The position numbers and the translations under genes were made by a program. From Escarpia spicata (lineage: Eukaryota; Annelida; Polychaeta; Sabellida; Siboglinidae): DNA of 64,000 nt. The notes below the pieces were generated by a model. That model saw only the letters and a program-made list of their open reading frames with translations, did not search any database and was not told where the DNA came from. This document shows, one piece after another, positions 1 through 54,518 of the stretch. The stretch's first letter is position 1, and each line of letters starts with the position of its first letter. The stretch lies in assembly GCA_963995525.1 (NCBI GenBank), contig OZ023210.1, positions 4,194,527 through 4,258,526 on the forward strand. Reading direction: 5' to 3'.

Positions 1-32
1 CCTTGGTGTCAGCTTTAGCAAGCAAGTGGAAG
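1..32 (+). CDS. NUP155: NUP155 exon 1 (end of exon, runs off the left edge)
   Basis: Reads [10 protein letters not shown], matching the propeller strand just before the LLP-PLF-PTDN segment of the next exon. It ends in phase 1 at a weak donor GTTGGT (position 33). The phase fits the next exon, which needs one leading base. The donor is unusual, so the exact end is less sure. Confidence 0.6.
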
Positions 33-3000
33 GTTGGTTCTGGTTTCTATCAAACATTGTCATCTGAAACTTTGTCAGTGCGCTAAGTCATAATGTATAT
101 ACAAAAGTGTTTGAATGCTCTAATGATATTCTACATTGATTGTTCTGATGTCAATGTTTGTGTAATTGTTTGCTTTCATTCCTGAAATATTTATGGTTTT
201 GTGCATTGTTAATGTGATTGTTTCACTTCTGAAAAAGTTGGGTGTGTTTCTATTTTAAATTATGGTAATTTAATTTATTTGTTAACGTCTCTGTCAATTT
301 CACATCTTCCAGGGTCATCCTTTCGGGAGATGCATCTGCTTCCCGTGCCTCTGTTCACTGTACCAACAGACAACATACACGTCCTGAACATCACAGGCTC
401 AGACAATGGCAGAGACTTCATGTCAAGCAAAGATGGCTGCCTCTACGAGCTCGCTTATCAGGTAAGTACTCAAGGTTCGTTCACCGGTACAGGCACAGTT
501 CCATTTGTAAACATTCGTTCACCTGCATAGGGACAGTTCCATTTGTAAACATTTGTAAACATTCGTTCACTTGCATAGTGACAGTTCCATTTGTAAACAT
601 TTGTAAACATTCGTTCACCTGCATAGGGACAGTTCCATTTGTAAACATTCGTTCACCTGCATAGGGACAGTTCCAATTGTAATCATTGCTTCACCTGCAT
701 AGGGACAGTTCCATTTGTAAACATTCGTTCACCTGCATAGGGACAGTTCCATTTGTAAACATTCGTTCACCTGCATAGGGACAGTTCCATATGTAAACAT
801 TCATTCACTAGCATAGGGACAGTTCCATTTGTAAACTTCCGTTCACCTGCATAGGGACAGTTCCAACTGTAATCATTGCTTCTCCTGCATAGGGACAGTT
901 CCATTTGTAAACATTCGTTCACCTGCATAGTGACAGTTCCATTTGTAAACATTTGTTCACCTGCATAGGGACAGTTCCATATGTAAACATTCATTCACTT
1001 GCATAGGGACAGTTCCATTTGTAAACTTCCGTTCACCTGCATAGGGACAGTTCCAATTGTAATCATTGCTTCTCCTGCATAGGGACAGTTCCATTTGTAA
1101 ACATTCGTTCACCTGCATAGTGACAGTTCCATTTGTAAACATTCGTTCACCTGCATAGGGACAGTTCCATATGTAAACATTCATTCACTTGCATAGGGAC
1201 AGTTCCATTTGTAAACTTCCGTTCACCTGCATAGGGACAGTTCCAATTGTAATCATTGCTTCACCTGCATAGGGACAGTTCCATTTGTAAACACTCATTC
1301 ACCTGCATAGGGACAGTTCCATTTGTAAACATTCGTTCACCTGCATAAGGATAGTTCCAATTGTAATCATTGCTTCACCTGCTTAGGGACAGTTCCATTT
1401 GTAAACATTCGTTCACCTGCATAGGGACAGTTCCAATTGTAATCATTGCTTCACCTGCATAGGGACAGTTCCATTTGTAAACATTCATTCACCTGCATAG
1501 GGACAGTTCCATTTGTAAACATTCGTTCACTTGCATAGTGACAGTTCCATTTGTAAACATTCATTCACTTGCATAGGAACAGTTTCATTTGTAAACATTT
1601 GTTCACTTGCATAGGGACAGTTCCATTTGTAAACGTTCATTCACTTGCATAGGGACAGTTCCATTTGTAAACATTCATTCACTTGCATAGGAACAGTTTC
1701 ATTTGTAAACATTTGTTCACTTGCATAGTGACAGTTCCATTTGTAAACATTCATTCACTTGTATAGGAACAGTTTCATTTGTAAACATTTGTTCACTTGC
1801 ATAGGGACAGTTCCATTTGTAAACGTTCGTTCACTTGCATAGGGACAGTTCCATTTGTAAACATTTGTTCACTTGCATAGGAACAGTTTCATTTGTAAAC
1901 ATTTGTTCAGTTGCATAGGGACAGTTCCATTTGTAAACATTCATTCACTTGCATAGGAACAGTTTCATTTGTAAACATTTGTTCACTTGCATAGGGACAG
2001 TTCCATTTGTAAACGTTCGTTCACTTGCATAGGGACAGTTCCATTTGTAAACATTCGTTCACTTGCATAGGGACAGTTCCATTTGTAAACATTTGTTCAC
2101 TTGCATAGGAACAGTTTCATTTGTAAACATTTGTTCACTTGCATAGGGACAGTTCCATTTGTAAACATTCGTTCACCTGCATAGGGACAGTTCCATTTGT
2201 AAACATTCGTTCACTTGCATAGTGACAGTTCCATTTGTAAACATTCATTCACTTGCATAGGAACAGTTTCATTTGTAAACATTTGTTCACTTGCATAGGG
2301 ACAGTTCCATTTGTAAACGTTCGTTCACTTGCATAGGGACAGTTCCATTTGTAAACATTCGTTCACTTTCATAGTGAGTTCTATTTGTAAACATTCGTTT
2401 ACCTGCATAGTGACAGTTCCATTTGTAAACATTCGTTCACCTGCATAGGGACAGTTCCATTTGTAAACATTCGTTCATCTGCATAGGGACAGTTCCAATT
2501 GTAATCATTGCTTCATCTGCATAGGGACAGTTCCATTTTTAAACATTCGTTCACCTGCATAGGGACAGTTCCATTTTTAAACATTCGTTCACCTGCATAG
2601 GGACAGTTCCAATTGTAATCATTCATTCACCTGCAGCAAGCTGCTGTGTTTTATTGGGTTCAATGAAACTAGTTTTTTAATGAGATTTCCAACATGCTCT
2701 CAAAAAAATTTGGACATAGACATTCCCAGACTGAAGTTGTAGTTTGTGCTAATCATGTCGTTTGACACGTCCAGTGTGATATTTCTGTTTCATTGCTTCA
2801 TCTAGTGACCTGTCCATCACGTGACCTGTTGCTAGGCAAAATGTTCATCAAGCCATCACAAATGAATGCTAAAAACATGTAGCTCTTCCATCAATGTTGT
2901 TGACATTTTTTCTTTGTGAACTAACAGAGGACAGTCGTTTAGGAGAGGACAGTCGTTTAGGAGAGGACAGTCATTTAGGAGAGGACAGTCGTTTAGGAGA

Positions 3001-6000
3001 GGACAGTCGTTTAGGAGAGGACAGTCGTTTAGGAGAGGACAGTTGTTAAGGAGAGGACAGTTGTTTAGAAGAGGACAGGGCACTTGTGTAGAATCTGGAC
3101 CCATCTCAATTTCGCCATTATAACTTGAGTTTTGCCCAACTTCGATACCTCAGTGCGTTAGTTCCATTATTCAACATTATCACATGGATATTTACGTTTA
3201 AGAATTATTGTGTGTTAACGCACTTTTGAAGCGTAAATAGCGCCCCGGTTTGCATCAACATGCGCCGCTATATCGCTCATTTTACGAGCGCGATGTGGTA
3301 ACGCACTACCGCAGTGAAGCAGACCAGCACACACCGGGTTGCTATTTGGGCTTCAAAAATGTGCTAAGATGCAATATTTTCGTAATATATACATGCCTGG
3401 GATGATGTTGAATGATGGGACTAACGCTCTGATGTATCAAAGTTAGGCAAAACTTAAGTAATAACAGCGAAATCGAGGTGGGTCCGGATTCTACACAAGT
3501 GCCGAGGACAGTTGTTAAGGAGAGGACAGTTGTTTTGGAGAGGACAGTTGTTTAGGAGAGGACAGTTGTTTAGGAGAGGACAGATGTTTTTGAGAAGACA
3601 GTTGGTTAGGAGACGACAGTTGTTAAGGAGAGGACAGTTGTTTAGAAGAGGACAGTTGTTTTTGAGAAGACAGTTGGTTAGGAGATGGCAGTTGGTTAGG
3701 AGACGGCAGTTGTTTAGGAGACGACAGTTGTTAAGGAGAGGACAGTTGTTTTGGAGAGGACAGTTGTTTAGAAGAGGACAGTTGTTTTTTAGAAGAGGAC
3801 AGTTGTTTTTGAGAAGACAGTTGGTTAGGAGACAACAGTTGTTAAGGAGAGGACAGTTGTTTAGGAGAGGACAGTTGTTAAGAGGAGACAGTTGTTTAGG
3901 AGAGGACAGTTGTTTTGGAGAGGACAGTTGTTTAGGAGAGGACAGTTGTTTAGAAGAGGACGGTTGGTTAGGAGACGGCAGTTGTTTAGGAGACGGCAGT
4001 TGTTTAGGAGAGGACAGTTGTTAAGGAGAGGACAGTTGTTTAGGAGAGAACTGTGTGCAGGAAAGATATATTTAACAGATTTGTCACTGATGAATTTAAA
4101 CTTTCATGTAATGAACATTATCCTAGTGACATCAGTTTCTAGTTAACATTGGTGCCTGTTGTAACAGAATTGTACACAAGCTTGACCTGTGTTATCTGTA
4201 TACTGTATACTATTATGTGTTATCTGTATACTATTATGTGTTATCTGTATACTGTATACTATTATGTGTTATCTGTATACTGTATACTATTATGTGTTAT
4301 CTGTATACTATTATTTGTTATCTGTATACTATTATGTGTTATCTGTATACTAATATGTGTTATCTGTATACTATTATGTGTTATCTGTATACTATTATGT
4401 GTTATCTGTATACTATGATGTGTTATCTGTATACTACTATGATGTTGTAGGCGGAAGATGGTTGGTTCAGCAGAAAGTGCAGAAAAATCAACCACTCAAC
4501 GAGTCGTCTCTCTTTCGTTGTTCCATCCTTTCTCAACTTCTCCTTCATTGATGATGGTATGCACAATGTTCTTACCCATTAACTTTGTTGATGATGGCAC
4601 GCACAATGTTCTTACCCATTAACTTTGTTGATGATGGCACGCATAATGTTCTTACTCAGTAACTTTGTTGATGATGGTACGCACAATGTTCTTACCCATT
4701 AACTTTGTTGATGATGGCACGCAAAATGTTCTTACCCATTAACTTTGTTGATGATGGCACGCACAATGTTGTTACTCAGTAACTTTGTTGATGATGGCAC
4801 GCACAATGTTCTTACCCATTAACTTTGTTGATGATGGCACACACCATGTTCTTACTCAGTAACTTTGTTGATGATGGTACGCACAATGTTCTTACCCATT
4901 AACTTTGTTGATGATGGCACGCACAATGTTCTTACCCATTAACTTTGTTGATGATGGCACGCACAGTGTTCTTACTCATTAACTTTGTTGATGATGGCAC
5001 GCACAATGTTCTTACTCACTAACTTTGTTGATGATGGCATGTATAATGTTCTTACTCATTAACTTTGTTGATGATGGTACGCACAATGTTCTTACTCATT
5101 AACTTTGTTGATGATGGCACGCACAGTGTTCTTACTCATTAACTTTGTTGATGATGGCACGCACAATGTTCTTACTCATTAACTTTGTTGATGATGGTAT
5201 GCACAATGATACACTCATGCACACCGCACATGTACATACATGATACAACTATATATTGAAGTAACTTCACATTTTCCTATAAACCAAGCGTGTCTTTTTT
5301 GTGTGAGATATGTTGGTAACTGTTACCTTAACGTGACACAAGTGTTAATTCGGTGGTTCTTACAGTGTACTTTGTTTTCCAGATCCTCTCCTACACATTA
5401 GTATAGATGACAGCAGGAAACTGCTGTATACATTATCAGAGAAAGGAACCATTCAGGTACAATGTTTCTTATTGGTTATGGTATTTTATTTTATTTTAAA
5501 GTTGTATTATGACACAAATAATATTTCAATTAACTTGCAAACTTTTTATCAAAAAATAAATGTAATTTTACAAGTATTGGTAATTGTGCAATGTTTATAG
5601 GAAATGTTGTTTATGTTAGCAGTGTTTACACAGAGATGTTTACACAAAGATCCCATCATGTCTAATCCTGTTCAGGTCTCCAGGATTGATAAAATCATAG
5701 CTTTAAAAATTACACTTATTTGTCATTGAGTAAAAGTGATAAATAAAAATTACAACTAAATCTGTGGTCAGATCTTCTAAAACACAGGGATGAGAAATTT
5801 CCGTTTTTTGCCGGATTTCCGGTTTTTATACTGCTCCAAAGAGCATTTTTGTGAATCGTGTAAATCCGGGGAGAAAAAATGAATGTTGGGGGGTAAGGCA
5901 TATAAAATCCTGGACAATTCACTGACGATCTATCTGCGGATTGAGTTAACCATCTATCCACTGGGTGTCGCCACATGTTAATGACGTTGCCTGGCGATTA

Positions 6001-9000
6001 GAGACAGAACCGACCCAACCGAACCCGTGAATCTGCGAAGTAAAACCCTTACTTCTGTCAGCTGTTCGCTATTGAAAATGTTAACATTTTCTATTGAATA
6101 TTGCTCAAAATACACCATATGTTGTCTACAATTAAAACATATCTCTGAGGTGTCCCCCCTTCCCCATTAGATGAAACAGTCCTCTCGGACTGAAATGTGG
6201 GCCACAGCAAAATTTCCGTTTTTTTCTCTGAATGTTACTCTCATCCCTGAAAACAAGATCACTACACAGATCATAAAATGCTTGCATAGAACTTTTAAAG
6301 ACATTTTATGTATGTAAATGGGTCGAAACTGGATCTTTACTCAGTGTCAAAAACATAGACATACATGCATTGATTGAATAATAACTGTTCGTGCCCAGTT
6401 CTGTAGACACATGTTGAATGGACTGTTTGCCATGACAGCTGTTTGACCTTGGAGAAGACGGCAAGGGCATGGGGCGGGTGGCAGCCATATCTCAGCAGAC
6501 GACACTCCAGAACTCTGCTCTTGTGGCCAGGTGAGTTCTACAGAAGACGTTTTGATTGGTCTCCCAAGGATAAAACTTGTTTTATTACTGTTTGTCTTTT
6601 ATGTGTAGTTGTAAAATATGCACTTGTAAGTTGCTTCTAGATTCAATTACGTTCATAATTTGGAAGTGTAGTAAGTTACCTTTCTGAGTCCTTGTTTGCT
6701 CAGATAGAGCTTTCAGAATCCTCTCGATGCTTTCATCAGTGTTGTGAATCTGTGTGTGTCTGTGTGTGTCCATGTGTCTGTGTGTGTCCGTGTGTGTCCA
6801 TATGTGTCCGTGTGTGTCCATGTGTGTCTGTGTGTTTATATGTGTCCGAGTGTGTCCATGTGTGCATGTGTGTGTCCATGTGTGTCTGTGTGTGTCCATG
6901 TGTGTCTGTGTGTGTTCATATGTGTCTGTGTGTGTCCATGTGTGTCTGTGTGTTCATATGTGTCCGTGTGTGTCCATGTGTGTGTCCGAGTGTGTCCATG
7001 TGTGCGTGTGTGTGTGTCCATGTGTGTCTATGTGTGTCCGTGTGTGTCCATGTGTGTCTGTGTGTGTCCATATGTGTCTGTGTGTGTCCATGTGTGTCCG
7101 TGCGTGTGTGTCCATGTGTGTCTGTGTGTGTCCATGTGTGTCTGTGTGTGTCCGAATATGTCCATGTGTGCGTGTGTGTCCATGTGTCTGTGTGTGACCA
7201 TGTGTGTCTGTGTGTGTCCATGTGTGTCCGTGTGTGTCCGTGTGTGTCCGTGTGTGTCCATGTGTGTCCATGTGTGTCTGTGTGTGTCCGTGTGTGTCCA
7301 TGTGTGTCCATCTGTGCGTGTGATGAGAACATTTTTAAAAAGAATACACTGTTGGTTTCCATAGAACTATAGACAAGTCAAACTTCAAGCCAATAGTACA
7401 CATCGCTGCCATCCCAAAGACGGAGTCCATTAATGTCCACCTGGTGGCCATTACACACACTGGTGAGTGCCATTAAGTCAGAAAAATGCACTTGAAATGT
7501 TACACAAGTTTCATGTATCGCTGCATCTTAAATGCACAGTTTTATTGGCAGAAATGGAAAAATGCAATACATTAGCTGTTTTATACAAAATGTGTGTTTT
7601 ACATTAACAACTAAAAATAAAGTTGAAATAATAAATTTTTGGATGTAAACAAAATGTACCATGCTTATTTTTTCCAACAAATTTTTGTCTTTGATCATTA
7701 AACCTATTTGAAAATTAGTGTAAACATGCATCTAAGAATCGCTGAGTGGGCGACGTAAACATGCTGAATATGAGACTAGAGACAGTGGAATAAACTACAC
7801 TGTGTTTGCAGGAGTGCGCCTGTACTTCACAACGAGTCCCTTCTACCAGCGAAGTCGCCCCTCCATGTTGTCTCTCATCCACGTGCCCATGCCCCCGGGG
7901 TTCTCTGCCAGTGCCCCTCCGCAACGTCCCACTCGTGTCCACATCGCCCACTACAGGAAGGGTATGGTACCGCCATGTGGGGGTCATTTAAATCTCCGCC
8001 ATTTTGTGCAAATATTGTCTAATTTGGAAACGCTGCCATTCTTTAACGAACACATACAAATATAATTCTTGAACATTTTCACTACATTCTATTGCATTTG
8101 TTAAAATGCTGTGTTTTAATTTTTTTAATAACTGGTAAAATGCAGAAAATACTTGTTTGTTTTGCAATAAATACTGGTTTATCTTTCAAACTATTGATGT
8201 TTTTTTATTTTGGGTAATTGCACAGAGTATAGTATGCTGAATGCAACATTGAAAACTTTAATTACCACCAGAAATTTAATTTTTCCAAATGCAGAATTGT
8301 TTTGGGTTGTTGAGAAAATAGGAAAATAGTCATCAAAGATTGCATAATGGATTTGATTACTTGATATATCGACACACTTGATCCGTGAATAGTAGTTATT
8401 TAGAAGTAAGTAATTGTTATAACAGTAGACTTTATTGAAACTACAATCAGCCCAATCAAGGGATGAGTGAGTGAAACAAACGAAGCTATCATAATCTTGC
8501 AGAAAACCAGTTTGAGTAATTTTTGTCAAAAAGCACCATTTCACTTGGCGTGTCTGGACTTAATGGTTGATCAGAATGGAATGAATGTGTTTTTTACCTT
8601 GGAATGTTCATTGGAAATGAACACAGTTCAAGAGGTTGTTCGATGCAAGTCGGTGGCTGTGGACATTGTAAGCTTAAAAAACCAACCCTAAGATGGTGTA
8701 AGTTATTGTCAGATGTGTACATTTTAAAGATTCAGCTTTGCAAAACATTTTATGTAGTGCGAGTTCTGCAGAAAACATCACACACAAATACGTAGTCACT
8801 CTTACCTTGTGTGGCCCTGTATAACAATATTACCTTGTGTGGCCCTGTATAACAATCTTACCTTGTGTGGCCCTGTATAACAATCTTACCTTGTGTGGCC
8901 CTGTATAACAATCTTACCTTGTGTGGCCCTGTATAACAATCTTACCTCGTGTTGCCCTGTATAACAATCTTACCTCGTGTGGCCCTGTATAACAATCTTA

Positions 9001-36000: not shown

Positions 36001-39000
36001 TGCCGACTGTGTGTAACCAGTTCGCGGCGGTTGGCTTCTACTCTGGCATCGTGGAATTGACATTGACTGCATCAAAGAAGAGAGACCTGCAGTGTTGGGG
36101 CCTGCACTTCTACAAGAATGGGGAGCCACCCTCTGACTCCCAGGGCCTCATTGCCTACAGCAACAGGTGAACTAACCTTAAGCCTCTCACTCCCAGGGCC
36201 TCATTGCCTACAGCAACAGGGGAACTAACCTTAACCCTCTCACTCCCAGGGCTTCATTGCCTACAGCAACAGGTGACCTAACCTTAACCCTCTCACTCCC
36301 AGGGCTTCATTGCCTACAGCAACAGGTGAACTAACCTTAACCCTCTCATACTCAGGGCATCATTGTCTACAGCAACAGGTGAAGTAACCTTAACCCTCTC
36401 ACTCCCAGGGCCTCATTGCCTTCAGCAACAGGTGAAGTAACCTTAATCCTCTCACAAGGCATATGACCACATTTTACCTACAGTATTGCCGAGGTGAAGA
36501 AGAGATGTGTTTGTTGACAGAATGGACTGCTACAAGTGTATCACGGAGACCCTCAACTACCTGCTGTCAGCCAGTCAGTCCCACCCCCACGCCCCCAGCG
36601 TACCCAAGCTGCCCGGTCCACTGCAGGTCACTGACGATCCCAACAGACTGGCCAACAGTTTGAGGACTTCACGAATGTGTGGTCCAGTCACCCTTGAGTC
36701 TTACCAAAAACATCCAGCTTCACCCCTTTGGGGCCCAACAAAACCTCCACTTACACCCCTGAGGCTTAACAAAACACCAAACTGCATCCTCCTAAGGTTC
36801 AACAAAACCTCCAAGTGCATCCCTTTTGATGCCAAGATAGAGGGGCATACACACGATCAGCCCTGGTTATTGTCTCGTTTTCTACTCTACCTTGCCCAGT
36901 ACTCTTTGCAAGACCCACTTTCTGTTTCCGTCCTTGTGCTTAGTAACTCTTCTCTTGTTTTGTAGAACATCTTCACCCGTATGTGCATTGAGTTGCATGA
37001 AACATTTCTGTTGTGTTTAGTCAGAGGAAGTATTCCGCCTCTCGTTGAGGTCTGATGACGATCTCTTCCACGTGGCCCTCTACGACTTGCTCATCAACAA
37101 GAATCTCTCTGAGAAGTTACTTGAAGTGAGTTCACGTTACGATACCAACAACAGTCTGAGAAGTTATTTTAGGTGAGTTCACTTTCAGATATCAACAAGA
37201 GTCTCTGAGAAGTTACTTGAGGTGAGTGCACTTTCAGATATCAACAAGAGTCTTTGAGAAGTTACTTGAGGTGAGTTCACTTTCAGATATCAACAAGTCT
37301 CTGAGAAGTTACTTGATGTTAGTTCACTTTCAGATATCAACAAGACTCTCTGAGAAGTTACTTGAGGTGAGTTCACTTTCAGATATGAACAAGAGTCTCT
37401 GAGAAGTTACTTGAGGTGAATTCATTTTCAGATATTCCCATTAGTACTTCTTTCATACTGTCTTAATTTGTTTGTCAAATAAACCATTTTGACAAATCTA
37501 ATAATAAAATTAAGAATGTTTTCAATTGCAGTTTAGCAAGACTGGAGTTTATATACCAGTGCAGGTTTAGAAAAAGACCCAATCATCCAGTGTTGTAAGC
37601 ATAGACTGTGTCTGATGACTCATCATCAGCTCATAAAACCCAATCATCCAGTGTTGTAAGCATAGACTCTGTGCCTTATGACTCATCATCAGCTCATAAG
37701 ACCCAATCATCCAGCGTTGCAAGCATAGACTGTGCCTGATGACTCATCATCAGCTCATAAGACACAATCATCCAGTGTTATAAGCATAGACTATGTGCCT
37801 GATGACTCATCATCAGCTCATAAGATCTAATCATCCAGTGTTGTAAGCATACACTATGTGTCTGATGACTCATCATCAGCTCATAAGACCCAATCATCCA
37901 GTGTTGCAAGCATAGACTGTGCCTGATGACTCATCATCAGCTCATAAGACCCAATCATCCAGTGTTATAAGCATAGACTATGTGCCTGATGACTCATCAT
38001 CAGCTCATAAGATCTAATCATCCAGTGTTGTAAGCATACACTATGTGTCTGATGACTCATCATCAGCTCATAAGACCCAATCATCCAGTGTTGTAAGCAT
38101 AGACTCTGTGCCTTATGACTCATCATCAGCTCATAAGACCCAATCATCCAGTGCTGTAAGCATAGACTCTGTGCCTTATGACTCATCATCAGCTCATAAG
38201 ACCCAATCATCCAGTGATATAAGCATAGACTATGTGCCTGATGACTCATCATCAGCACATAAAACCTAATCATCCAGTGATATAAGCATAGACTATGTGT
38301 CTGATCATTCCTCATGAGCGCATAAACCCGATTTTCTCTTTAAAATTGATTTCTTGTGTACTGAACATTTTCAACACCAGGACGCCGCACCGGAACATTT
38401 TAGCTGGTGCATCATGGAAATATTGTCCTCAGTGATGCAGCGGTGGCTTTTTCATAATGGAATAGGCTCCTAAATTTATTAAGGGATTCTGTTTACCGGT
38501 TGATTATGAGCCTTAGTAGTGAAACAGCCCTTTGGACTGACGCACAACAAAGGGCACGGGGGGGGGGAGTTTTGTGCTACCCCATGTACAAATGATGTTT
38601 TATGGTTGGTCTGATGTGCCAAAAGGGTTAGTTTTAGGGATAGTGTTTGGTTGAAGGCTAGGGTGAAGTTTAAGTTCTGTTGACAAGATTGACATCAGAT
38701 GTATACATGCATTTGTACGTGTAACAAATAGCCATCTGTGTGATGTGAAGGGTGTTTGTCACAGATCCAGTCGCCCTACCTGGAGGACTACCTGAAGCGT
38801 GCTGCGTCCCTACACCCCAACAACCTGGCTATGCTCGACCTGCTGTGGCGCTACTATGAGAAGTCCAAGAACTACTCAGCTGCTGCAAGCATCCTCGCAA
38901 AGCTGGCTGAGAGACGCAGGTATGTGGCGTGACAGTTGTCATAATTGTCACCAAGTTACCTGAGACACAGGTACGTGTCATGACAGCTGTCATACATTGT

Positions 39001-42000
39001 CACCAAGTTACCCGACTCACAGGTATGTGTTATGACAGGTGTCATACATTGTCACCAAATTACCTGACACACAGGTATGTGTTGTGACAGGTGTCATACA
39101 TTGTCTCCAAGTTAGCTGACATACAGGTACTTGTTATGACAGGTGTCATACATTGTGTCTCCGAGTTACCTGAGACACAGGTATGTGTCATGACAGGTGT
39201 CATACATTGTCTCCAAGTTACCTGAGACACAGGTACGTGTCATGACAGGTGTAATACATTGTCACCAAGTTACCTGAGAGACAGGTACATGTCACGACCG
39301 GTGTCATACATTGCCACCAAGTTACTTGACTCATAGGTACTGGTATGTGTTTGTCACAAATTTTACACTTTACGCTAGATTGCCTTGTTTATGTTTGGTA
39401 TAACGCACCCTAGCGAATACGCGGGACACTAACCACATAAACAAATTCGATTTCCCCTCGATTATCACCCACCAAAGCACCGGCTTTGGCCTGCGACTAA
39501 CTTCCTCAAATACACTTTCTCTGACTACCGTTTATCTACAGCTGTTTCTTAATATATGTCTATGGATAGTTTATGAATAATATTTATAAAATGACAATAC
39601 TTGTCTCTTGAATCCTTCCAAATATTTTCGAAAATTTCTGCACCAATATCCACAATGATCCAAGCCCAAGATTTTCCTGCCAACTAAAATCAATTTGTTT
39701 AAATATCTCTTGGGAGAATTTGTGAAATGCTTCTTATTGGCAGACATTATTTTGTTTATAAAACTGAATGAGGAAGGTAAGCTAAAACTGGTTTGAATAA
39801 ATTTCCAGTTTTCCTGGTTATCAGAAACGATTTGGTTTGATTAAAGTGTTATAAAACTTTCATGTAAGAATGGTGGCCTTGCAGCATGGATGTCAACCTT
39901 GGGCAGCGTATTGAATATCTCTCGCGGGCAGCCATGTGTGCTAAAAGTTCAACGTTACGCACAACTTCAGCAGTAGAAGGCGAATTTCTTCATGAACTTG
40001 AAAAGAAAATGGAGGTAGGTTTTGTAGGAAATCATGAACTTACAGGGGTGTGCACCCATTTTCTTTGGTTTCTGTGGTTCCTGAGTTCTGCCATCTCAGC
40101 AGACATGACTTGGCAAGTGATTTATGCATCTCACATACGAGCAACAGGCTACCAGAACACTGTAAACATCTGATAGTTTAAGTGGACTTTTCAATGTTGT
40201 TTCATCACCAAGCTTTGAATATAGTATGATATTGGTAAAAATGTAAACACAATGATGGATTCAACAGTCAAGGTTGGCATTGAGATCACTGCCACGGCGT
40301 TGGATGCTGCTAAAAGGGGGTGTACGCTAATTACGGCATGTACACTTAATAGAACGAATACAGTATTATGACACCATTATATATATACACTGTGATGACT
40401 TTCATAGTGAAAGATACCTGTTTTGAAATATACTTCAAATATTAGAATTTTAAAGTATGTCACAGTTTTATGGAAAGATGTGATACAAAAAGAAAACTGT
40501 ATCATCCATAATTCGTAACTGCGACACTTTATAGACAATAAAAAGCTAAGGTAATACAACCACCTTACAATTATGGTCATCTCAGTAATACAACCACCTT
40601 ACAATTATAGTCACCTCAGTAATACAACCACCTTACAATTATGGTCATCTCAGTAATACAACCACCTTACAATTATAGTCACCTCAGTAATACAACCACC
40701 TTACAATTATGGTCATCTCAGTAATACAACCACCTTACAATTATAGTCACCTCAGTAATACAACCACCTTACAATTATGGTCATCTCAGTAATACAACCA
40801 CCTTACAATTATAGTCACCTCAGTAATACAACCACCTTACAATTATGGTCATCTCAGTAATACAACCACCTTACAATTATGGTCATCTCAGTAATACAAC
40901 CACCTTACAATTATGGTCAACTCAGTAATACAACCACCTTACAGTTATGATCACCACAGCAATACAACCACCTTACAATTATGGTCATCTCAGTAATACA
41001 ACCACCTTACAATTATAATCACCTCAGTAATACAACCACCTTACAATTATAGTCACCTCAGTAATACAACCACCTTACAATTATGGTCATCTCAGTAATA
41101 CAACCACCTTACAATTATAGTCACCTCAGTAATACAACCACCTTACAATTATGGTCATCTCAGTAATACAACCACCTTACAATTATAGTCACCTCAGTAA
41201 TACAACCACCTTACAATTATGGTCATCTCAGTAATACAACCACCTTACAATTATGGTCATCTCAGTAATACAACCACCTTACAATTATGGTCAACTCAGT
41301 AATACAACCACCTTACAGTTATGATCACCACAGCAATACAACCACCTTACAATTATGGTCATCTCAGTAATACAACCACCTTACAATTATAATCACCTCA
41401 GTAATACAACCACCTTACAATTATGGTCACCTCAGTAATACAACCACCTTACAATTATGGTTACCTCAGTAATACAACCACCGTACAATTAGGGTCACCT
41501 CAGTAATAGAGCCACCTTACAATTATGGTTACCTCAGTAATACAGCCACCTTACAATTATGGTCACCCTGGGACAGTCACACATGACTTCTGTAAACGTA
41601 AAGTATAGGGTATTAGTAGGTAATTTTGGCCCCGTCCTGAGGCTGCAATGATAGTGAGATTTCACCCTATAATTTGAACGTCTGTGACAATTTAATATTA
41701 ATCAATTAAATATACTTCAATATGAATTGTCTTTGCATTGTAAATTGCAGCTGGCTAGCTGCAGAGATGTGTTTGATGTTGGATATGGCAGCAATCCCGT
41801 TGTAAATCTTTGTTGATGATGTAGGGGGCAGCGACCCAATTGTAGATCTTTGATATATGTAGCAGCAATGCCGTTGTAAATCTTTGTTGATGGGGTAGGG
41901 AGCAGTGACCTAATTGTAGATCTTTGTTTGATGTTGTATGTGGCAGCAATACTATTATAAATCTTTGTTGAAGGTGTAGGGGGGCCAGTGACCCAATTGT

Positions 42001-42136
42001 AGATCTTTCATTGATGTTGTAGGTGGCAGCGATCCAGCTGCAGAACTTTGAGTTGTTGTCAAAGCAGTCAGCCAAGAGTTCTGAGTTGAGTGATGCTCTT
42101 GCCCAGCTGAATGCTGAGTTGGTCAACATCACCTCC
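1..42136 (+). CDS. NUP155: NUP155 nucleoporin gene, partial (27 exons seen)
   Basis: This is the nuclear pore scaffold protein Nup155 (Nup170/Nup154 family). It belongs to the inner ring of the pore and contacts Nup35/Nup93 and the membrane side. The exons, read in order with consistent splice phases, give about 985 residues collinear with the animal protein. Propeller pieces include [37 protein letters not shown] and PPGFSAS. The junction has [11 protein letters not shown] and PVDQLRQLL. Helical-stack pieces include [68 protein letters not shown] and [12 protein letters not shown]. The 5' exons lie before the window. The C-terminal ~250 residues known in the family (human protein about 1,390 residues) are not found downstream. 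Three junctions (exons 8/9, 16/17, 23/24) are less certain. Introns are unusually rich in minisatellites. Seen: the exons and phases. Known: family role. Inferred: single transcript. Confidence 0.93.
313..461 (+). CDS. NUP155: NUP155 exon 2, beta-propeller
   Basis: Acceptor CAG at 310-312, strong donor CAG/GTAAGT at 462. Encodes the propeller segment with [17 protein letters not shown] and [11 protein letters not shown], one of the best conserved stretches of the family. Starts with two bases completing a codon and ends in phase 0. A 38-bp minisatellite begins 12 bases after the donor. Confidence 0.93.
474..2637. repeat. 38-bp minisatellite, intron 2
   Basis: About 57 copies of a 38-bp unit carrying ACAGTTCCATTTGTAAAC. 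It starts 12 bases after the exon 2 donor. In the first half a variant unit (CAATTGTAATCATTGC) recurs about every 190 bp, so five units form a higher-order repeat. The right half has a different subfamily (ACAGTTTCATTTG). Confidence 0.97.
2925..4048. repeat. 16-18-bp minisatellite, intron 2
   Basis: Copies of a short unit with core GAGAGGACAGTTGTTTAG. A foldback element at 3079-3503 interrupts it. Variants with GACGACAG, GACGGCAG and AAGACAG are interspersed. The long arginine/glutamine-rich open frames across it are repeat artefacts. Confidence 0.95.
3079..3503. mobile_element. Foldback MITE with 8-bp target duplication
   Basis: A 425-bp element beginning GGCACTTGTGTAGAATC and ending with its reverse complement. 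The two arms pair, imperfectly, for well over 100 bases. GAGGACAG flanks both sides (3071-3078 and 3504-3511) and restores the surrounding repeat when the element is removed. It has no coding capacity. The superfamily is not identified; an 8-bp duplication would fit hAT-like or P-like transposition. Confidence 0.88.
4185..4448. repeat. 21-bp minisatellite next to exon 3 acceptor
   Basis: About 11 copies of a unit like TACTATTATGTGTTATCTG, some with a duplicated TACTGTA. The last copy merges into TACTATGATGTTGTAG, the acceptor of exon 3, so the array abuts the splice site. Confidence 0.93.
4451..4556 (+). CDS. NUP155: NUP155 exon 3, beta-propeller
   Basis: Acceptor TTGTAG at 4445-4450 and donor GATG/GTATGC at 4557. 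Reads [18 protein letters not shown], then a serine/phenylalanine-rich stretch ending FSFIDD. This matches the family's GWFSQRCRKINHS segment. It ends in phase 1 and joins exon 4 to give DDDPLLHIS. The last seven exon bases are also the first bases of a 40-bp tandem array. Confidence 0.93.
4550..5213. repeat. NUP155: 40-bp donor-seeded minisatellite after exon 3
   Basis: About 16.6 copies of a 40-bp unit starting GATGATGGTACGCACAATG. The first copy begins inside exon 3: GATGATG is the exon end and GTATGC is the real donor. Copies near 4677, 4877, 5077 and 5197 keep a GT after GATGATG; most others have GC. Confidence 0.96.
5383..5456 (+). CDS. NUP155: NUP155 exon 4, beta-propeller
   Basis: Acceptor TTTCCAG and donor CAG/GTACAA. 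Reads [20 protein letters not shown] and then GTIQ, matching the [22 protein letters not shown] propeller strand. Phase 0 at the end. Confidence 0.92.
5785..6249. mobile_element. Small inverted-repeat DNA element
   Basis: Starts CAGGGATGAGAAATTTCCG and ends with TCTCATCCCTG; a second AAATTTCCG lies near the right end. The CAGGG terminus is typical of hAT elements. No clear 8-bp duplication and no coding capacity. Confidence 0.6.
6439..6530 (+). CDS. NUP155: NUP155 exon 5, beta-propeller
   Basis: Reads [18 protein letters not shown] and then [12 protein letters not shown], the DLGxDGxGM loop of the family. Acceptor GACAG, donor CCAG/GTGAGT. Ends in phase 2; the split arginine is completed by exon 6. 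Confidence 0.92.
6742..7322. repeat. TGTGTC-rich minisatellite, intron 5
   Basis: GTGTGTCCATGTGTGTCTG-type units on the + strand, strongly G+T on one strand. Cysteine/valine-rich open frames in several frames are repeat artefacts. Confidence 0.95.
7365..7462 (+). CDS. NUP155: NUP155 exon 6, beta-propeller
   Basis: Reads [18 protein letters not shown] and then [14 protein letters not shown], matching the family's TIDRSVFKPIVQIAVI...LLAVTHAG strand. Acceptor CCATAG, donor CTG/GTGAGT. Phase 1 at the end. A TG-rich array ends about 40 bases before the acceptor. Confidence 0.93.
7812..7961 (+). CDS. NUP155: NUP155 exon 7, beta-propeller
   Basis: Reads [28 protein letters not shown] and VHIAHYRK, matching the highly conserved GVRLYFST...VRLPPGFSAS region. 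Acceptor TTTGCAG, donor AAGG/GTATGG. Ends in phase 1. Confidence 0.94.
8815..9548. repeat. 28-bp minisatellite, intron 7
   Basis: About 26 copies of a unit with CTTACCTTGTGTGGCCCTG, single-base variants (GGCC, TGCC, GACC). No obvious link to a splice junction. Confidence 0.96.
9630..10296. repeat. Acceptor-like minisatellite before exon 8, left part
   Basis: 28/29-bp units in 57-bp dimers (GTGTCACTTGGTGGTGATTG), grading into ~42-bp units with TGTCACCAGAGACCATGTTG. The latter match the exon 8 acceptor and exon start. An insertion ends it near 10296, and it continues at 11350. Confidence 0.93.
10297..11349. mobile_element. Probable hAT-like insertion splitting the array
   Basis: Unique sequence interrupts the GTGGTGA array. 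Both ends carry GGGAAAAA and CATTTACCGGTATTT motifs in opposite or near-opposite arrangement, and the right end reads CAGGGTTGGCAC on the minus strand, a hAT-type terminus. No transposase frame is seen. Exact ends uncertain. Confidence 0.5.
11350..11715. repeat. NUP155: Acceptor-seeded minisatellite before exon 8, right part
   Basis: Units of about 42 bp read CTGTGTCACCAG then GGACCATGTTGTTGG. The final copy is the real acceptor CACCAG and exon start GGACCCTGTTGCTGG. Several upstream copies keep a perfect CACCAG acceptor. Confidence 0.9.
11702..11811 (+). CDS. NUP155: NUP155 exon 8, beta-propeller (3' end tentative)
   Basis: Acceptor GTCACCAG at 11694-11701. Reads [17 protein letters not shown] and then [13 protein letters not shown], matching the family's LLMAAS...ILWCVNHDTFPFQ. 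The next exon starts in phase 0, so the only phase-compatible GT is AGA/GTGACA at 11812. That places LRILCFIR between FPFQ and exon 9, slightly longer than expected. The acceptor and first 14 exon bases resemble the upstream repeat unit. Confidence 0.8.
12424..14035. repeat. NUP155: 41-bp acceptor-seeded minisatellite before exon 9
   Basis: About 39 copies of a 41-bp unit, GTCTTGTGTGTAGGAAGAGG followed by TCCAGGTCAGAGTCTGGAT. It matches the exon 9 junction TTGTAG/GAAGTGATGCCAATCCAGGG. Nearly every copy has an acceptor-like TGTGTAG or TGTGCAG. Confidence 0.95.
14036..14316 (-). mobile_element. tRNA-derived SINE
   Basis: On the minus strand the head at 14316 reads GGGCGCAGTAGCACAGC with an A box (TAGCACAGCTGTAAGAGC) and a B box (GGGTTCAAATCC). 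A central domain with GAATGAGTACCTGGC follows, then a tail with AAAGCGCTTGG. The head is tRNA-like but has no proper cloverleaf end, so it is a SINE and not a tRNA gene. Confidence 0.82.
14270..14412. repeat. ~70-bp duplication of SINE head plus exon 9 acceptor
   Basis: GAGGCTCTTACAGCTGTGCT...TTGTAGGAAGTGATGCC occurs twice, about 70 bp apart. It makes one extra acceptor at 14330 and places SINE-derived sequence directly upstream of the acceptor used for exon 9. Confidence 0.9.
14401..14568 (+). CDS. NUP155: NUP155 exon 9, propeller/helix junction
   Basis: Reads [35 protein letters not shown] and RKFVLINSQ, matching the family's DGHSWALSAID...[20 protein letters not shown]. Acceptor TTGTAG at 14395-14400, donor CACAG/GTGAGG at 14569. 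Phase 0 at both ends. Minisatellites seeded by its own acceptor (upstream) and donor (downstream) flank it. A second copy of its first bases with an intact TTGTAG lies at 14331. Confidence 0.92.
14558..15195. repeat. NUP155: 29-bp donor-seeded minisatellite after exon 9
   Basis: About 21 copies of AACTCACAG/GTGAGGGGATC followed by ATTGTCCTT. The first copy spans the real junction at 14568/14569, and most copies keep CACAG/GTGAGG intact. Confidence 0.95.
15384..15491 (+). CDS. NUP155: NUP155 exon 10
   Basis: Reads [20 protein letters not shown] and then [16 protein letters not shown], matching the family's KLRPVDQLRHLL...ERFFKLHQ. Acceptor CTGCAG, donor CGG/GTAGGT. Phase 0 throughout. An 18-bp CT-rich array begins a few bases after the donor. 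Confidence 0.93.
15496..16456. repeat. 18-bp CT-rich minisatellite after exon 10
   Basis: About 53 copies of TCCCTCATCCACACCCTC, starting 4 bases after the exon 10 donor. Strongly pyrimidine-biased on the + strand. The exon frame runs open through it, giving a His/Pro-Ser/Thr repeat, but no donor is duplicated. Confidence 0.96.
16919..17078. repeat. 8/16-bp CCTCCATG/CCTCCACA minisatellite, intron 10
   Basis: Tandem CCTCCATGCCTCCACACC units, C-rich on the + strand, 60 bases upstream of exon 11. Confidence 0.95.
17139..17198 (+). CDS. NUP155: NUP155 exon 11
   Basis: A 20-codon exon reading [20 protein letters not shown], nearly identical to the family's [20 protein letters not shown]. Acceptor TTTGTAG, donor GAG/GTGGGT. 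Phase 0. Confidence 0.94.
17577..17715. repeat. 26-bp minisatellite, intron 11
   Basis: Five to six copies of GTTCACCATCGTCATGCCTG followed by ATTGAT. Confidence 0.94.
17860..18693. mobile_element. Inverted-repeat DNA element (~830 bp), intron 11
   Basis: AATTTACGTGTATAATACGC at 17867-17886 is the inverted partner of 18667-18686. ATGTATAATATG(C)ACCC is repeated inside both ends. No coding capacity is seen. It looks like a non-autonomous DNA transposon; class not assigned. Confidence 0.7.
18874..18967 (+). CDS. NUP155: NUP155 exon 12
   Basis: Reads [17 protein letters not shown] and then [14 protein letters not shown], matching the VSAWATRAFFRYGGEAQ helix. Acceptor TTCACAG, donor ATA/GTGAGT. 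Ends in phase 1. The tail after GGEPE is the family's poorly conserved linker. Confidence 0.9.
19090..20321. repeat. NUP155: 45-bp minisatellite, intron 12 (probably donor-derived)
   Basis: About 27 copies of a 45-bp unit, TTATGAGCTGATAAAAATG then TTAGTGAGATGGTCCCCAG. It resembles the exon 12 junction, where ATGTATAGTGAGTGACATG is followed by CACCAGG...ATTCTTGAG. The similarity is partial. The period is a multiple of three, so a 410-codon open frame of 15-residue repeats crosses it. Confidence 0.95.
20618..20674 (+). CDS. NUP155: NUP155 exon 13, linker
   Basis: Reads [18 protein letters not shown], a Gly/Ser/Pro linker like the low-complexity insertion of vertebrate Nup155 at this place. Acceptor TTGCAG, donor GAG/GTGAAT. 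Phases agree with exons 12 and 14. Confidence 0.8.
20690..21240. repeat. NUP155: Acceptor-seeded minisatellite before exon 14
   Basis: Irregular units with GACCGGTGTGTGTCTGTAG and GTCATGTGACATGTTT. The last copy GACCGGTGTGTCTAG/GTGAG is the acceptor of exon 14. Confidence 0.92.
21241..21394 (+). CDS. NUP155: NUP155 exon 14
   Basis: Reads [18 protein letters not shown], then [19 protein letters not shown] and LCLYLSRIL. This matches the family's [20 protein letters not shown]. Acceptor GTCTAG at 21235-21240, donor CTCAG/GTGTGT at 21395. Ends in phase 2. The last 16 exon bases and the donor recur nine more times downstream with a 36-bp period, and the reading frame stays open. Confidence 0.94.
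21379..21735. repeat. NUP155: 36-bp donor-seeded array, ten tandem splice donors
   Basis: Ten copies of TCTCTCGCATTCTCAG/GTG then TGTTAAGTATCTCTGGG. The first half-unit is the end of exon 14. Every copy keeps CTCAG/GTGTGT. The period is 12 codons and the exon frame stays open through all copies. Confidence 0.97.
21760..24505. repeat. NUP155: 46-48-bp acceptor-seeded array before exon 15
   Basis: Nearly 60 copies of GGCCACTGTGGGGTGTG then TTCTGTCCTGACTGTACTTG and TTGTTGCCA. The last copy is the exon 15 junction TTGTTGCCAG/GCCACTGTGG. Almost every copy holds a pyrimidine tract and CAG. A block at about 23040-23390 is repeated 516 bp further on. Confidence 0.97.
24506..24566 (+). CDS. NUP155: NUP155 exon 15
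   Basis: A short exon in the phase required by exon 14. The junction reads [18 protein letters not shown] and ends PSEQKKY at a consensus donor TAT/GTAAGT. The family has SRI..xIWDxxLVxE here, so RPLW..xMVKE is plausible. The acceptor TTGCCAG and first ~12 exon bases are the last copy of the large upstream array, so the exon start rests mainly on phase. Confidence 0.75.
24567..25265. other. Unique intron 15 sequence with AT-rich hairpins
   Basis: No exon seen. Contains TTTTCCTTTTTCGTTT (from 24782) and its near inverted partner AATGAAAAAGGAAAA (from 24812), then further TTTTTCGTTTT / AAAAACGAAA pairs to 24980. This suggests a foldback structure or decayed element. Confidence 0.55.
25270..26960. 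repeat. NUP155: 24-bp acceptor-seeded array before exon 16
   Basis: Units of TTCTTTCTGTCACCAACT(G/A)ATGAG, matching the exon 16 junction TTTTCTGTCCACAG/TTGATGAG. Most copies have lost the AG; copies near 25280, 25760 and 26083 keep CCTCAG. The 24-bp period leaves long open frames (FFLSPTNE). A short inverted block near 25820-25910 recurs near 26140-26230. Confidence 0.94.
26965..27086 (+). CDS. NUP155: NUP155 exon 16 (3' end tentative)
   Basis: Reads [18 protein letters not shown] and then [19 protein letters not shown], matching the family's [23 protein letters not shown]. Acceptor GTCCACAG at 26957-26964. Two donors are possible: AAG/GTATTG (27076) and GGG/GTGACT (27087). Only the second gives the phase 2 end that exon 17 needs. 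Confidence 0.85.
27295..28098 (+). mobile_element. Tigger/pogo-like DNA transposon remnant
   Basis: Starts CAGTGCAACACGCTTATA and ends with its exact inverse TATAAGCGTGTTGCACTG, followed by TA. A short + strand frame near 27660-27712 ends [19 protein letters not shown], like the C-terminal tail of pogo-type transposases. The rest of the transposase is missing. Confidence 0.7.
28181..28263 (+). CDS. NUP155: NUP155 exon 17
   Basis: Acceptor TTTTGTAG, donor CAAG/GTAAGT. In the frame required by exon 18 it reads [17 protein letters not shown] and then [10 protein letters not shown]. The tail fits the family's QQELQRKFHEA; the first half is in a variable stretch. Confidence 0.75.
28646..28779 (+). 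CDS. NUP155: NUP155 exon 18
   Basis: Reads [20 protein letters not shown] and then [20 protein letters not shown], matching the family's SYQALALWKLLCEHQFTII. Acceptor TTTGTAG. The phase-compatible donor is the weak GCG/GTTGGT at 28780, the same hexamer used at position 33. A better-looking GTAACT four bases on would break the frame. Confidence 0.9.
28890..29093. repeat. ~33-bp minisatellite, intron 18
   Basis: Six copies of TATTGGTTGTGTTTGCTGTG followed by CTGTGTACTTATA. Confidence 0.93.
29349..29600. repeat. 28-bp minisatellite, intron 18
   Basis: About nine copies of GGTCATGATACAGGGGTG followed by TTGTTACTAT. Confidence 0.93.
29800..29859 (+). CDS. NUP155: NUP155 exon 19
   Basis: Twenty codons reading [20 protein letters not shown], matching the family's QLKITTFKDLVIRDKE. 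Acceptor ATTGTAG, donor GAG/GTAGGC, phase 0. Confidence 0.93.
30268..30790. repeat. 22-bp minisatellite, intron 19
   Basis: About 23 copies of TAGGTTGACGGAGGTCACGC followed by AC, with GGCGG variants in the right half. Confidence 0.95.
30935..31330. repeat. TGTGACTTGTGACATTG array next to exon 20 acceptor
   Basis: Degenerate 16-17-bp units on the + strand, running to GACATTGTTACAG, the acceptor of exon 20. Adjacent to the junction; exon bases are not included. Confidence 0.9.
31334..31465 (+). CDS. NUP155: NUP155 exon 20
   Basis: Reads [19 protein letters not shown] and then [14 protein letters not shown], matching the family's IASLINCYIRDNAAVDGIS...CPLLYSTDDAICSK. Acceptor GTTACAG, donor AAG/GTAGGG, phase 0. 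A TGACATTG-type array runs to within about 10 bases of the acceptor. A long CTT-rich tract starts just after the donor. Confidence 0.95.
31478..32090. repeat. 600-bp pure pyrimidine (CTT/CCTTCTT) tract
   Basis: Almost uninterrupted C+T on the + strand, beginning about 12 bases after the exon 20 donor. Leucine/phenylalanine- and arginine-rich open frames on either strand are artefacts. Confidence 0.97.
32089..32256. repeat. 23-bp minisatellite, intron 20
   Basis: About seven copies of GTCAGCTCCGGTGTTGAGC followed by ACCT, ending about 35 bases before exon 21. Confidence 0.93.
32292..32369 (+). CDS. NUP155: NUP155 exon 21
   Basis: Reads [16 protein letters not shown] and then [10 protein letters not shown], matching the family's ANELLQRSRQ...KERMLRESLKEY. 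Acceptor TTTCAG, donor CAG/GTCAGT, phase 0. Confidence 0.92.
32640..33167. repeat. NUP155: 32-bp acceptor-seeded array before exon 22, left part
   Basis: Degenerate copies of TTGTTCAAGGATGTTG then TGACTTTGTCTTGTAG. They match the exon 22 junction CTTGTAG/TTGTTCAAAGACGTTG. A LINE interrupts the array at 33168. Confidence 0.9.
33310..34727 (+). pseudogene. LINE reverse transcriptase pseudogene
   Basis: Frames at 33310-33570, 33711-34127 and 34329-34727 are successive pieces of one reverse transcriptase. A 21-bp repeat expansion, stops and frameshifts break it. Fingers (SNKATGLD), palm (PQG...GPLLF, YADN) and thumb ([13 protein letters not shown]) regions are recognisable. Confidence 0.82.
33819..34232. 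repeat. 21-bp array grown inside the LINE RT
   Basis: About 20 copies of CTCCTATATGAGCAACATCAG (seven codons, LLYEQHQ). It starts where related RTs read LLYExQxGFR and ends at [14 protein letters not shown], the continuation of the same RT block. The repeat arose from RT coding sequence. Confidence 0.93.
35775..35985. repeat. NUP155: 32-bp acceptor-seeded array before exon 22, right part
   Basis: Six copies of TTGTTCATGGTCATTG then TGACTTTGTNTTGTAG. The last runs into the true acceptor CTTGTAG and exon start TTGTTCAAAGACG. Confidence 0.93.
35970..36166 (+). CDS. NUP155: NUP155 exon 22
   Basis: Reads [36 protein letters not shown] and [16 protein letters not shown], matching the family's [27 protein letters not shown]...LGLHFYKHGEP. 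Acceptor CTTGTAG, donor CAACAG/GTGAAC. Ends in phase 2. Arrays seeded by its acceptor (upstream) and its donor (downstream) flank it. Confidence 0.95.
36137..36455. repeat. NUP155: 53-bp donor-seeded array after exon 22
   Basis: Six copies of CTCCCAGGGCCTCATTGCC, then TACAGCAACAG/GTGAACTAA and CCTTAACCCTCTCA. Each copy holds the last ~28 bases of exon 22, the donor, a CTAAC branch-point-like motif and a pyrimidine-rich CAG. Confidence 0.95.
36521..36657 (+). CDS. NUP155: NUP155 exon 23
   Basis: Reads [20 protein letters not shown] and then [20 protein letters not shown], matching the family's LNSYKCITDTL...PSVPKKPGP...SDPNMLSN. Acceptor TTGACAG. The conserved DPN..AN motif must be included, so the donor is taken as ACA/GTTTGA at 36658, a weak site in the phase exon 24 needs. 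Confidence 0.88.
37025..37125 (+). CDS. NUP155: NUP155 exon 24
   Basis: Reads [20 protein letters not shown] and then [13 protein letters not shown], matching the family's [25 protein letters not shown]...DKLLQ. The start is placed after TTTAGTCAG (37016-37024) because that gives the right phase; the AG at 37020 would cause a frameshift. Donor GAA/GTGAGT. The last ~27 exon bases plus donor recur downstream. Confidence 0.9.
37096..37437. repeat. NUP155: 49-bp donor-seeded array after exon 24
   Basis: About six copies of ATCAACAAGAGTCTCTGAG, AAGTTACTTGAG/GTGAGTTC and ACTTTCAGAT. The left half is the end of exon 24 and most copies keep GAG/GTGAGT. Confidence 0.95.
37570..38325. repeat. 63-bp minisatellite, intron 24
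   Basis: Twelve copies of a unit with ATCATCCAGTGTTGTAAGC, TGACTCATCATCAGCTCAT and AAGACCCA. Three-unit (189-bp) blocks recur. Every copy has TGACTCA. Not linked to a splice site. Confidence 0.95.
38765..38919 (+). CDS. NUP155: NUP155 exon 25
   Basis: Reads [36 protein letters not shown] and [15 protein letters not shown], matching the family's SPFLEPHLVRMA...[28 protein letters not shown]. Acceptor GTCACAG, donor CGCAG/GTATGT, ends phase 2. The donor junction recurs downstream in a 52-bp array. Confidence 0.95.
38894..39345. repeat. NUP155: 52-bp donor-seeded array after exon 25
   Basis: About eight copies of AAGTTACCTGAGACACAG/GT, then ATGTGTCATGACAGGTGTC and ATACATTGTCACC. They match the exon 25 end AAGCTGGCTGAGAGACGCAG and its intron. 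Most copies keep ACAG/GTAYGTG, a good donor. Confidence 0.93.
39885..40014 (+). CDS. NUP155: NUP155 exon 26
   Basis: Reads [20 protein letters not shown] and then [14 protein letters not shown], matching the family's [20 protein letters not shown]...[14 protein letters not shown]. Acceptor TTGCAG, donor GAG/GTAGGT. No array touches either junction. Confidence 0.95.
40545..41570. repeat. 34-bp minisatellite with higher-order structure, intron 26
   Basis: About 30 copies of CAGTAATACAACCACCTTAC then AATTATGGTCACCT, alternating ATCT and ACCT ends. A rare variant (CAGTTATGATCACCACAGC) occurs twice, 374 bp (11 units) apart, showing block duplication. Confidence 0.95.
41775..42038. repeat. NUP155: ~42-bp acceptor-seeded array before exon 27
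   Basis: Six copies of TTTGTTGATGTTGTAG, (G)TGGCAGCAATCC and NNTTGTAAATC. The last copy is the junction TTGATGTTGTAG/GTGGCAGCGATCC. Confidence 0.9.
42023..42136 (+). CDS. NUP155: NUP155 exon 27 (last exon found)
   Basis: Reads [20 protein letters not shown] and then [18 protein letters not shown], matching the family's VARIQLQIQETLQ...DAVSQLDSELMDITK. Acceptor TTGTAG, donor TCC/GTGAGT, phase 0. The expected next segment (LYGEFADPF..L.ECKLAI) is not visible before the next gene. Confidence 0.93.
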
Positions 42137-54145: not shown

Positions 54146-54518
54146 TTGGTTCGAAATTAACTGCAGTGTGATGACTCTAGTTATCGAGGCCAAGCGTGCA
54201 GCTCTTGAAGAACACAAGCGCTCACCCAGACAAGCATCGCTCCAGGTACTCCGAGCAGCCAGAAGCAAAGTTTAGCAGACTGCTAGGCCCTGTGCGAACG
54301 AATGCTGGCACCAGATATGCAAGGACACCCAGAGATCAATTGATACCGGTAACATGTATGACGGCATCAAGAAAGCCATAGGCCCAACTCAGAGCAAGAC
54401 AGCTCCTTTGAGGTCCTCCACAGGAGAGCCCATCCATGACAGGAAAAATCTAATGGAGAGGTGAGTAGAGTACTACTCAGAACATTGCTCCAGAGAGAAT
54501 GTTGTCACCAGCTCAGCC

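Follow-up and report, generated by a model that had tools for sequence, protein, structure and literature searches.

Tandem arrays sharing bases with their own splice junctions in the NUP155 gene of the annelid Escarpia spicata

Results

A 27-exon NUP155 gene

The window, meaning the whole stretch of 64,000 nucleotides of Escarpia spicata DNA analysed here, contains a gene whose hand-picked translations match frog and human NUP155 (frog NUP155 chain, E 1.8e-212). Together with the matches to tubeworm NUP155 proteins, this bears out the identification proposed in an earlier note on this DNA. Spliced alignment to the Ridgeia and Lamellibrachia NUP155 proteins gave 27 exons, with exon 2 starting at position 313 and exon 27 ending at position 42136, and reproduced for exons 2 to 27 both the numbering and the span (313..42136) given in that note.

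2..42136, forward strand: NUP155 gene, exon 1 (partial, 2-32) to exon 27 (42023-42136); spliced alignment to two tubeworm proteins

The spliced aligner permits GT-AG introns alone, and the borders are GT-AG by construction. The Ridgeia and Lamellibrachia alignments disagree at exons 11, 17 and 18; the exon 17 donor (28263) and the exon 18 start (28646) were taken from the Lamellibrachia alignment, and exon 11 from the Ridgeia alignment only. Exons placed by the aligner past 42136 were discarded as chance, because the two queries put them at different places. A gene model based on human NUP155, in which the exon 9 start was misplaced, exon 13 was missed and 12 of 47 junctions were spanning, was superseded by the tubeworm-based model.

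The protein of the refined model is 83.8% identical to that of Ridgeia, 84.9% to Lamellibrachia, 58.0% to Lingula, 56.5% to Capitella and 51.8% to Branchiostoma, while Ridgeia and Lamellibrachia are 87.2% identical to each other across the same span. When the provisional protein was used as query, Ridgeia piscesae (82%) and Lamellibrachia satsuma (81%) stood on top of the best 120 of at least 618 matches, among which Lingula and Capitella followed at 55% and Branchiostoma belcheri at 50%. In a nine-sequence tree the window protein groups with Ridgeia, with a support of just 77. On these identities an amphioxus origin is rejected, and the gene falls among the siboglinid annelids, probably the vestimentiferan tubeworms.

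The predicted ends of exon 8 (11770-11815) and exon 23 (36650-36685) are unlike those of Ridgeia and Lamellibrachia, perhaps through a shift of splice sites or an error in the gene model. In addition, the last 200 or so residues of NUP155, its C-terminal part, were not found by a tblastn search of the remaining 22 kb downstream (42137-64000); the intron before them may be very long, or the region may be rearranged or wrongly assembled. Both observations are what a mis-assembly or a pseudogene copy might leave behind. Such an artefact is nevertheless very improbable, given a joined frame that runs for 993 residues with no stop and is 84-85% identical to relatives which share 87% with each other, and given intron arrays whose copies differ from each other (TRF matches of 70-97%).

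Tandem arrays across splice junctions

A total of 44 TRF clusters lie in the 26 introns. By hand-merging, 41 of them were reduced to 33 families (same unit, same intron), a separate TRF run supplying some of the ends, and three small clusters (5623-5651, 10339-10372 and 18273-18301) were left out. The 33 array families account for 22,686 of the 39,156 intron bases (58%). Across the window, tandem arrays cover 55.8% of positions 1-43400, the NUP155 part, and 14.6% of positions 43400-64000.

The junctions were examined by taking 45 bases on each side of every border and searching the junction's own intron for an ungapped match that crosses the border and scores 3 or more on both its exonic and its intronic side. 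Own-intron copies across the border were found at 12 of the 51 junctions tested (the exon 1 donor, which has too little flank, was excluded), with scores from 21 to 70. In the controls, 1275 comparisons with other introns gave a top score of 13, with 25 at 10 or above and none at the cut-off. A gapped version of the test returned the identical 12 junctions, with scores of 43-110 against a maximum of 26 in 282 non-cognate comparisons, these controls sampling roughly one in four of the other introns. The spanning arrays lie at both 5' and 3' borders, six at donors (exons 3, 9, 14, 22, 24 and 25) and six at acceptors (exons 8, 9, 15, 16, 22 and 27), and together make up 10,748 bases. The weakest case is the exon 16 acceptor, whose exonic score is 3 over 9 bases. 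The arrays, with their ungapped and, where given, gapped junction scores, are as follows.

4548..5208, forward strand: donor-spanning array, exon 3/intron 3, border 4556/4557, 40-bp unit, 9 exonic bases; TRF, score 51
9626..10301, forward strand: acceptor-spanning array of intron 7, outer block; TRF, best junction copy at 10278
11354..11716, forward strand: acceptor-spanning array, intron 7/exon 8, border 11701/11702, unit of about 39-42 bp; TRF, score 44
14284..14422, forward strand: two-copy junction duplication of 68 bp, intron 8/exon 9 acceptor, border 14400/14401, 22 exonic bases; TRF, score 61, gapped 94
14560..15192, forward strand: donor-spanning array, exon 9/intron 9, border 14568/14569, 29-bp unit; TRF, score 45
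20709..21238, forward strand: array adjoining the exon 14 acceptor, border 21240/21241, without a spanning copy in either test; TRF
21379..21761, forward strand: donor-spanning array, exon 14/intron 14, border 21394/21395, 36-bp unit, degenerate last copy at 21731-21761; TRF, score 59
21762..24522, forward strand: acceptor-spanning array, intron 14/exon 15, border 24505/24506, 47-bp unit, about 59 copies; TRF, score 54
25293..26973, forward strand: acceptor-spanning array, intron 15/exon 16, border 26964/26965, 24-bp unit, the weakest; TRF (to 26959), score 31, gapped 43
32656..33167, forward strand: acceptor-spanning array of intron 21, outer block, with junction-like copies; TRF
35774..35976, forward strand: acceptor-spanning array, intron 21/exon 22, border 35969/35970, 32-bp unit; TRF, score 39
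36128..36455, forward strand: donor-spanning array, exon 22/intron 22, border 36166/36167, 53-bp unit, 37 exonic bases; TRF, score 70
37093..37435, forward strand: donor-spanning array, exon 24/intron 24, border 37125/37126, 49-bp unit; TRF, score 34
38917..39340, forward strand: donor-spanning array, exon 25/intron 25, border 38919/38920, 52-bp unit; TRF, score 21, gapped 53
41788..42030, forward strand: acceptor-spanning array, intron 26/exon 27, border 42022/42023, unit of about 41-83 bp; TRF, score 33, gapped 58

The earlier note had counted at least 13 exon edges with a tandem array including the junction itself. All six of its firm donors were recovered by both tests, as were six of its seven acceptors. 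The exception is the exon 14 acceptor, where the array stops 2 nt before the border and neither the ungapped nor the gapped test found shared exon bases. At the exon 12 donor, which had been listed as a possible case, the closest array starts 134 nt away. The same note had placed further arrays within 4-18 bases of junctions of exons 2, 10, 20 and 27; this agrees with the distances measured at the exon 2 donor (14 nt), the exon 10 donor (5 nt) and the exon 20 acceptor (5 nt), whereas the arrays at the exon 20 donor (21 nt) and the exon 27 donor (about 21 nt, from 42158) lie slightly beyond that range. The observation of tandem arrays sharing bases with their own splice junctions is therefore confirmed in part, and holds in the main.

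A 41-bp array (12436-14036) lies in the same intron as the 68-bp duplication and may be related to the exon 9 acceptor; its score against that junction in the gapped test is 24, inside the control range. At the exon 22 acceptor, the inner and outer blocks of the array are now parted by LINE-bearing sequence in intron 21.

Intron 14 consists of copies of its own junctions

Intron 14 (3,111 bp) contains nothing but copies of the junctions at its two ends: donor units over 336 bp, a remainder of 31 bp, and acceptor units over 2,744 bp. The 31-bp remainder is itself a degenerate donor unit, with a score of 27 that was equalled in none of 2000 shuffles. Since the intron is built of junction copies alone, its precursor must have been very short. 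The 36-bp donor array lies in an open frame with exon 14 (a frame of 201 residues, 21228-21833), so that splicing from an inner donor would keep the frame and insert repeats of 12 residues.

Spanning arrays exceed random expectation in present-day introns

When array blocks were placed randomly and could take in as many as 40 exonic bases, a mean of 6.4 spanning arrays was obtained against the 12 seen (P 0.0076 for 12 or more). Collapsing each array to one unit and seeding it at random gave an expectation of 4.4 (P 1.3e-4), which corresponds to an approximately 2.7-fold excess over random seeding in present-day collapsed introns. Alternative overlap cut-offs led to 4.1-4.6 expected (P 5e-5 to 2e-4), and the excess stays when the 41-bp array of intron 8 is split from the 68-bp duplication (34 arrays, 4.5 expected, P 2e-4). 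The statement of the earlier note that arrays falling at random would rarely include exon bases is wrong, as both null models expect several. Arrays near a junction without crossing it are in no clear excess, either within 25 nt (6 against 4.8 expected, P 0.34) or within 10 nt (4 against 2.1, P 0.14). The over-representation concerns junction-spanning arrays, and not arrays merely close to junctions. Identity within arrays, compared on hand-entered values with roughly one per array, showed no difference between spanning and non-spanning arrays (P 0.96).

An excess of this kind, confined to the spanning class, would be expected if tandem duplications arose unusually often at splice junctions, making these mutational hot spots, for instance through R-loops, slippage in replication or breaks linked to transcription, and the same arrangement is repeated in several amphioxus genes, as far as the available excerpts of the published accounts describe them. 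Still, we hold this explanation to be doubtful. The case comes from one gene, and no clear strand bias is apparent, the coding strand being G-rich in 19 of the 33 arrays and in 9 of the 12 spanning ones, so that the R-loop idea of the earlier note finds a weak trend at most. Moreover, the excess disappears under short ancestral introns. With intron length at seeding capped at 382 bp, the null model gives P 0.004; the expectation rises to 8.0 spanning arrays at 200 bp (P 0.07) and to 9.6 at 150 bp (P 0.22). Seeding into introns of about 200 bp or less would bring the spanning excess within chance and, because the null depends on this length, no hot spot is claimed here.

The same figures lend weight to an explanation without any junction preference, according to which arrays were seeded at random while introns were short (about 100-200 bp) and came to span borders by geometry, the introns having later grown by array growth and transposon insertion. 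Collapsed introns 3, 9, 13, 14, 20 and 22 measure 71-220 bp today, and the very short precursor of intron 14 fits the same picture. Against it, the five array-free introns are 280-1094 bp long, with the median of 382 bp that served as the longest cap above, and in collapsed introns of at least 400 bp 7 of 18 arrays are spanning against 1.2 expected (units of at least 20 bp). This explanation may well hold, although we lean somewhat against it. Of the interpretation in the earlier note, the part that derives repeat units from junctions stands, while a process targeted to junctions does not follow, the excess being within chance at introns of about 200 bp or shorter.

Direction of copying and fate of the copies

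In all 12 spanning arrays the exonic part of the unit (7-37 bases) encodes residues that are ungapped at those columns in Ridgeia and Lamellibrachia. These residues are identical or nearly so to those of the relatives at most junctions, the largest difference being at the exon 9 acceptor (Lamellibrachia, 5 of 8 residues). The shared exon bases are thus older as coding sequence, common to both relatives, and copying ran from the junction into the intron, with the exon first. This finding, together with the approximately 2.7-fold excess, supports the proposal of the earlier note that repeat units derive from the junctions, and it disfavours the drifting of a splice border into an older array. 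The exonic share of the unit averages 0.35, against a uniform expectation of 0.5 (P 0.014); therefore selection or chance holds most of the unit intronic.

Copies were counted at a threshold of 60% identity, which admits a few doubtful ones (in intron 15, at least two lie outside its array). GT or AG is retained in 110 of 214 copies, where about 149 are predicted from neighbouring base pairs. Specifically, donor copies retain GT in 45 of 61 cases against about 43 predicted from neighbouring bases, and acceptor copies retain AG in 65 of 153, below the neighbour prediction, mostly through introns 7 and 15. The dinucleotides are not kept above their neighbouring bases, which indicates that the copies are neither guarded as spare sites nor, in the case of donors, purged; the AG deficit possibly reflects some selection against decoys.

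These counts bear on the idea, also raised in the earlier note, that spare splice sites were selected for and that arrays copying a junction were retained on this account. It is true that in 36 of the 61 donor copies the consensus match equals or betters that of the true donor. However, GT and AG retention leaves the idea unsupported, and unit length is a multiple of three in only 3 of the 12 spanning arrays, so that there is no sign of frame-keeping and use of most inner sites would shift the frame. We regard selection for spare sites as extremely improbable.

The array of intron 3 has GTATG at its true junction and again in its most distant copy. The 15 copies in between all lack it, 10 of them reading GCACG. 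This distribution, examined in intron 3, is the one expected of expansion from within.

Discussion

The NUP155 arrays resemble the "mirages" of amphioxus, tandem repeats across exon-intron borders described in Adh3, the globin genes BflGb6 and BflGb9, PGBD5 and troponin C (PMC3087553, PMC3902484, with Canestro et al. 2002 cited there). The amphioxus Adh precedent named in the earlier note is real and, in the excerpts of these sources, closer than that note had it, as the Adh repeats also span exon-intron borders. In both systems a minisatellite-like unit includes the border, on donor and acceptor sides, and many, not all, of the copies keep AG or GT. The edge copies of amphioxus mirages are described as less homogenised, and the array in intron 3 of NUP155 may be a parallel. 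The differences, as far as the excerpted accounts go, are the host, annelid here and cephalochordate in the published cases (which is not a structural requirement); the density, with 12 of 51 junctions in one gene against one border or two in each globin or PGBD5 gene; and the occurrence of one intron, number 14, made wholly of junction copies. In addition, the amphioxus mirages were tested by RT-PCR and for length polymorphism. The phenomenon itself is known as amphioxus mirages, and what is new here is the phylum, the density and the intron made of its own junction copies.

Two other systems invite comparison. The minisatellites in intron 1 of earthworm metallothionein genes (PMC12783039) are likewise large tandem arrays in an annelid intron; their monomers average 178 and 181 bp, they lie in the first intron, and repeats across splice borders are not described in the available text, which does mention unexplained duplications of a fourth exon. 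Intron gain through tandem duplication of AG/GT-bearing segments has been proposed for amphioxus globins (PMC3087553), and a potato case of intron gain by tandem duplication has been reported (PMC4974935). That model, as excerpted, also copies splice signals by tandem duplication, but in NUP155 existing introns grow and a new intron is not shown. In the literature searched, which left most subscription papers outside, no annelid junction-spanning arrays were found; nor are they described in the available portions of PMC12783039 and PMC12130307 (annelid) and PMC9921365 (the Ridgeia genome).

We consider it probable that the NUP155 arrays are mirage-like minisatellites, which arose as tolerated junction-spanning duplications and later expanded internally, so that the introns grew from their own splice junctions. 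Minisatellite birth would be frequent in the introns of this gene, and a tandem duplication across a splice junction would be tolerated, presumably as a neutral change, because the copy nearest the exon body (the first donor or the last acceptor) still has the whole site and stays in use. The remaining copies would become intron sequence and drift, the array would expand internally, by slippage or unequal exchange, and the functional edge copy would be held by selection, assuming that the outermost site is the one used. If splicing is normal, the machinery would have to pick the exon-nearest copy.

A broader reading would take siboglinid junctions, and perhaps those of amphioxus too, for true duplication hot spots, the arrays for a genome-wide engine of intron growth, and the spliceosome for a machinery that routinely picks the exon-nearest of dozens of sites. 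We mention this reading as speculative and rather unlikely.

If mirages are this dense in an annelid, they are no cephalochordate oddity, and they either originated separately or are widespread and overlooked. They would also open two old questions to testing, the lengthening of introns and the choice that the spliceosome makes between near-equivalent neighbouring sites, the latter in view of the many donor copies that equal or exceed the true site in consensus match. For annotation they carry a warning, since inner copies invite false exons, as is suspected for a predicted exon of lancelet PGBD5 in the excerpt of PMC3902484.

Transposons and other sequence in the window

Intron 21 carries, at 33200-35400, a decayed LINE that retains pieces of a reverse transcriptase (PF00078, E 3.6e-12 at 34308-34724). 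A 21-bp minisatellite (33814-34231) lies between the LINE fragments and therefore indicates that arrays also arise inside a transposon, away from junctions. In intron 8, a SINE-like stretch (14210-14340), tRNA-derived in appearance by eye, adjoins the 68-bp duplication, and its end lies within the duplicated unit; ARAGORN and Rfam found nothing in this stretch, and across the 64-kb window no tRNA and no Rfam family at gathering score were found. Outside the gene, a second LINE-like element with broken frames occupies 53192-56031, with a reverse transcriptase (PF00078, E 9.1e-14) and marginal matches to endonuclease-type domains (PF14529, PF03372).
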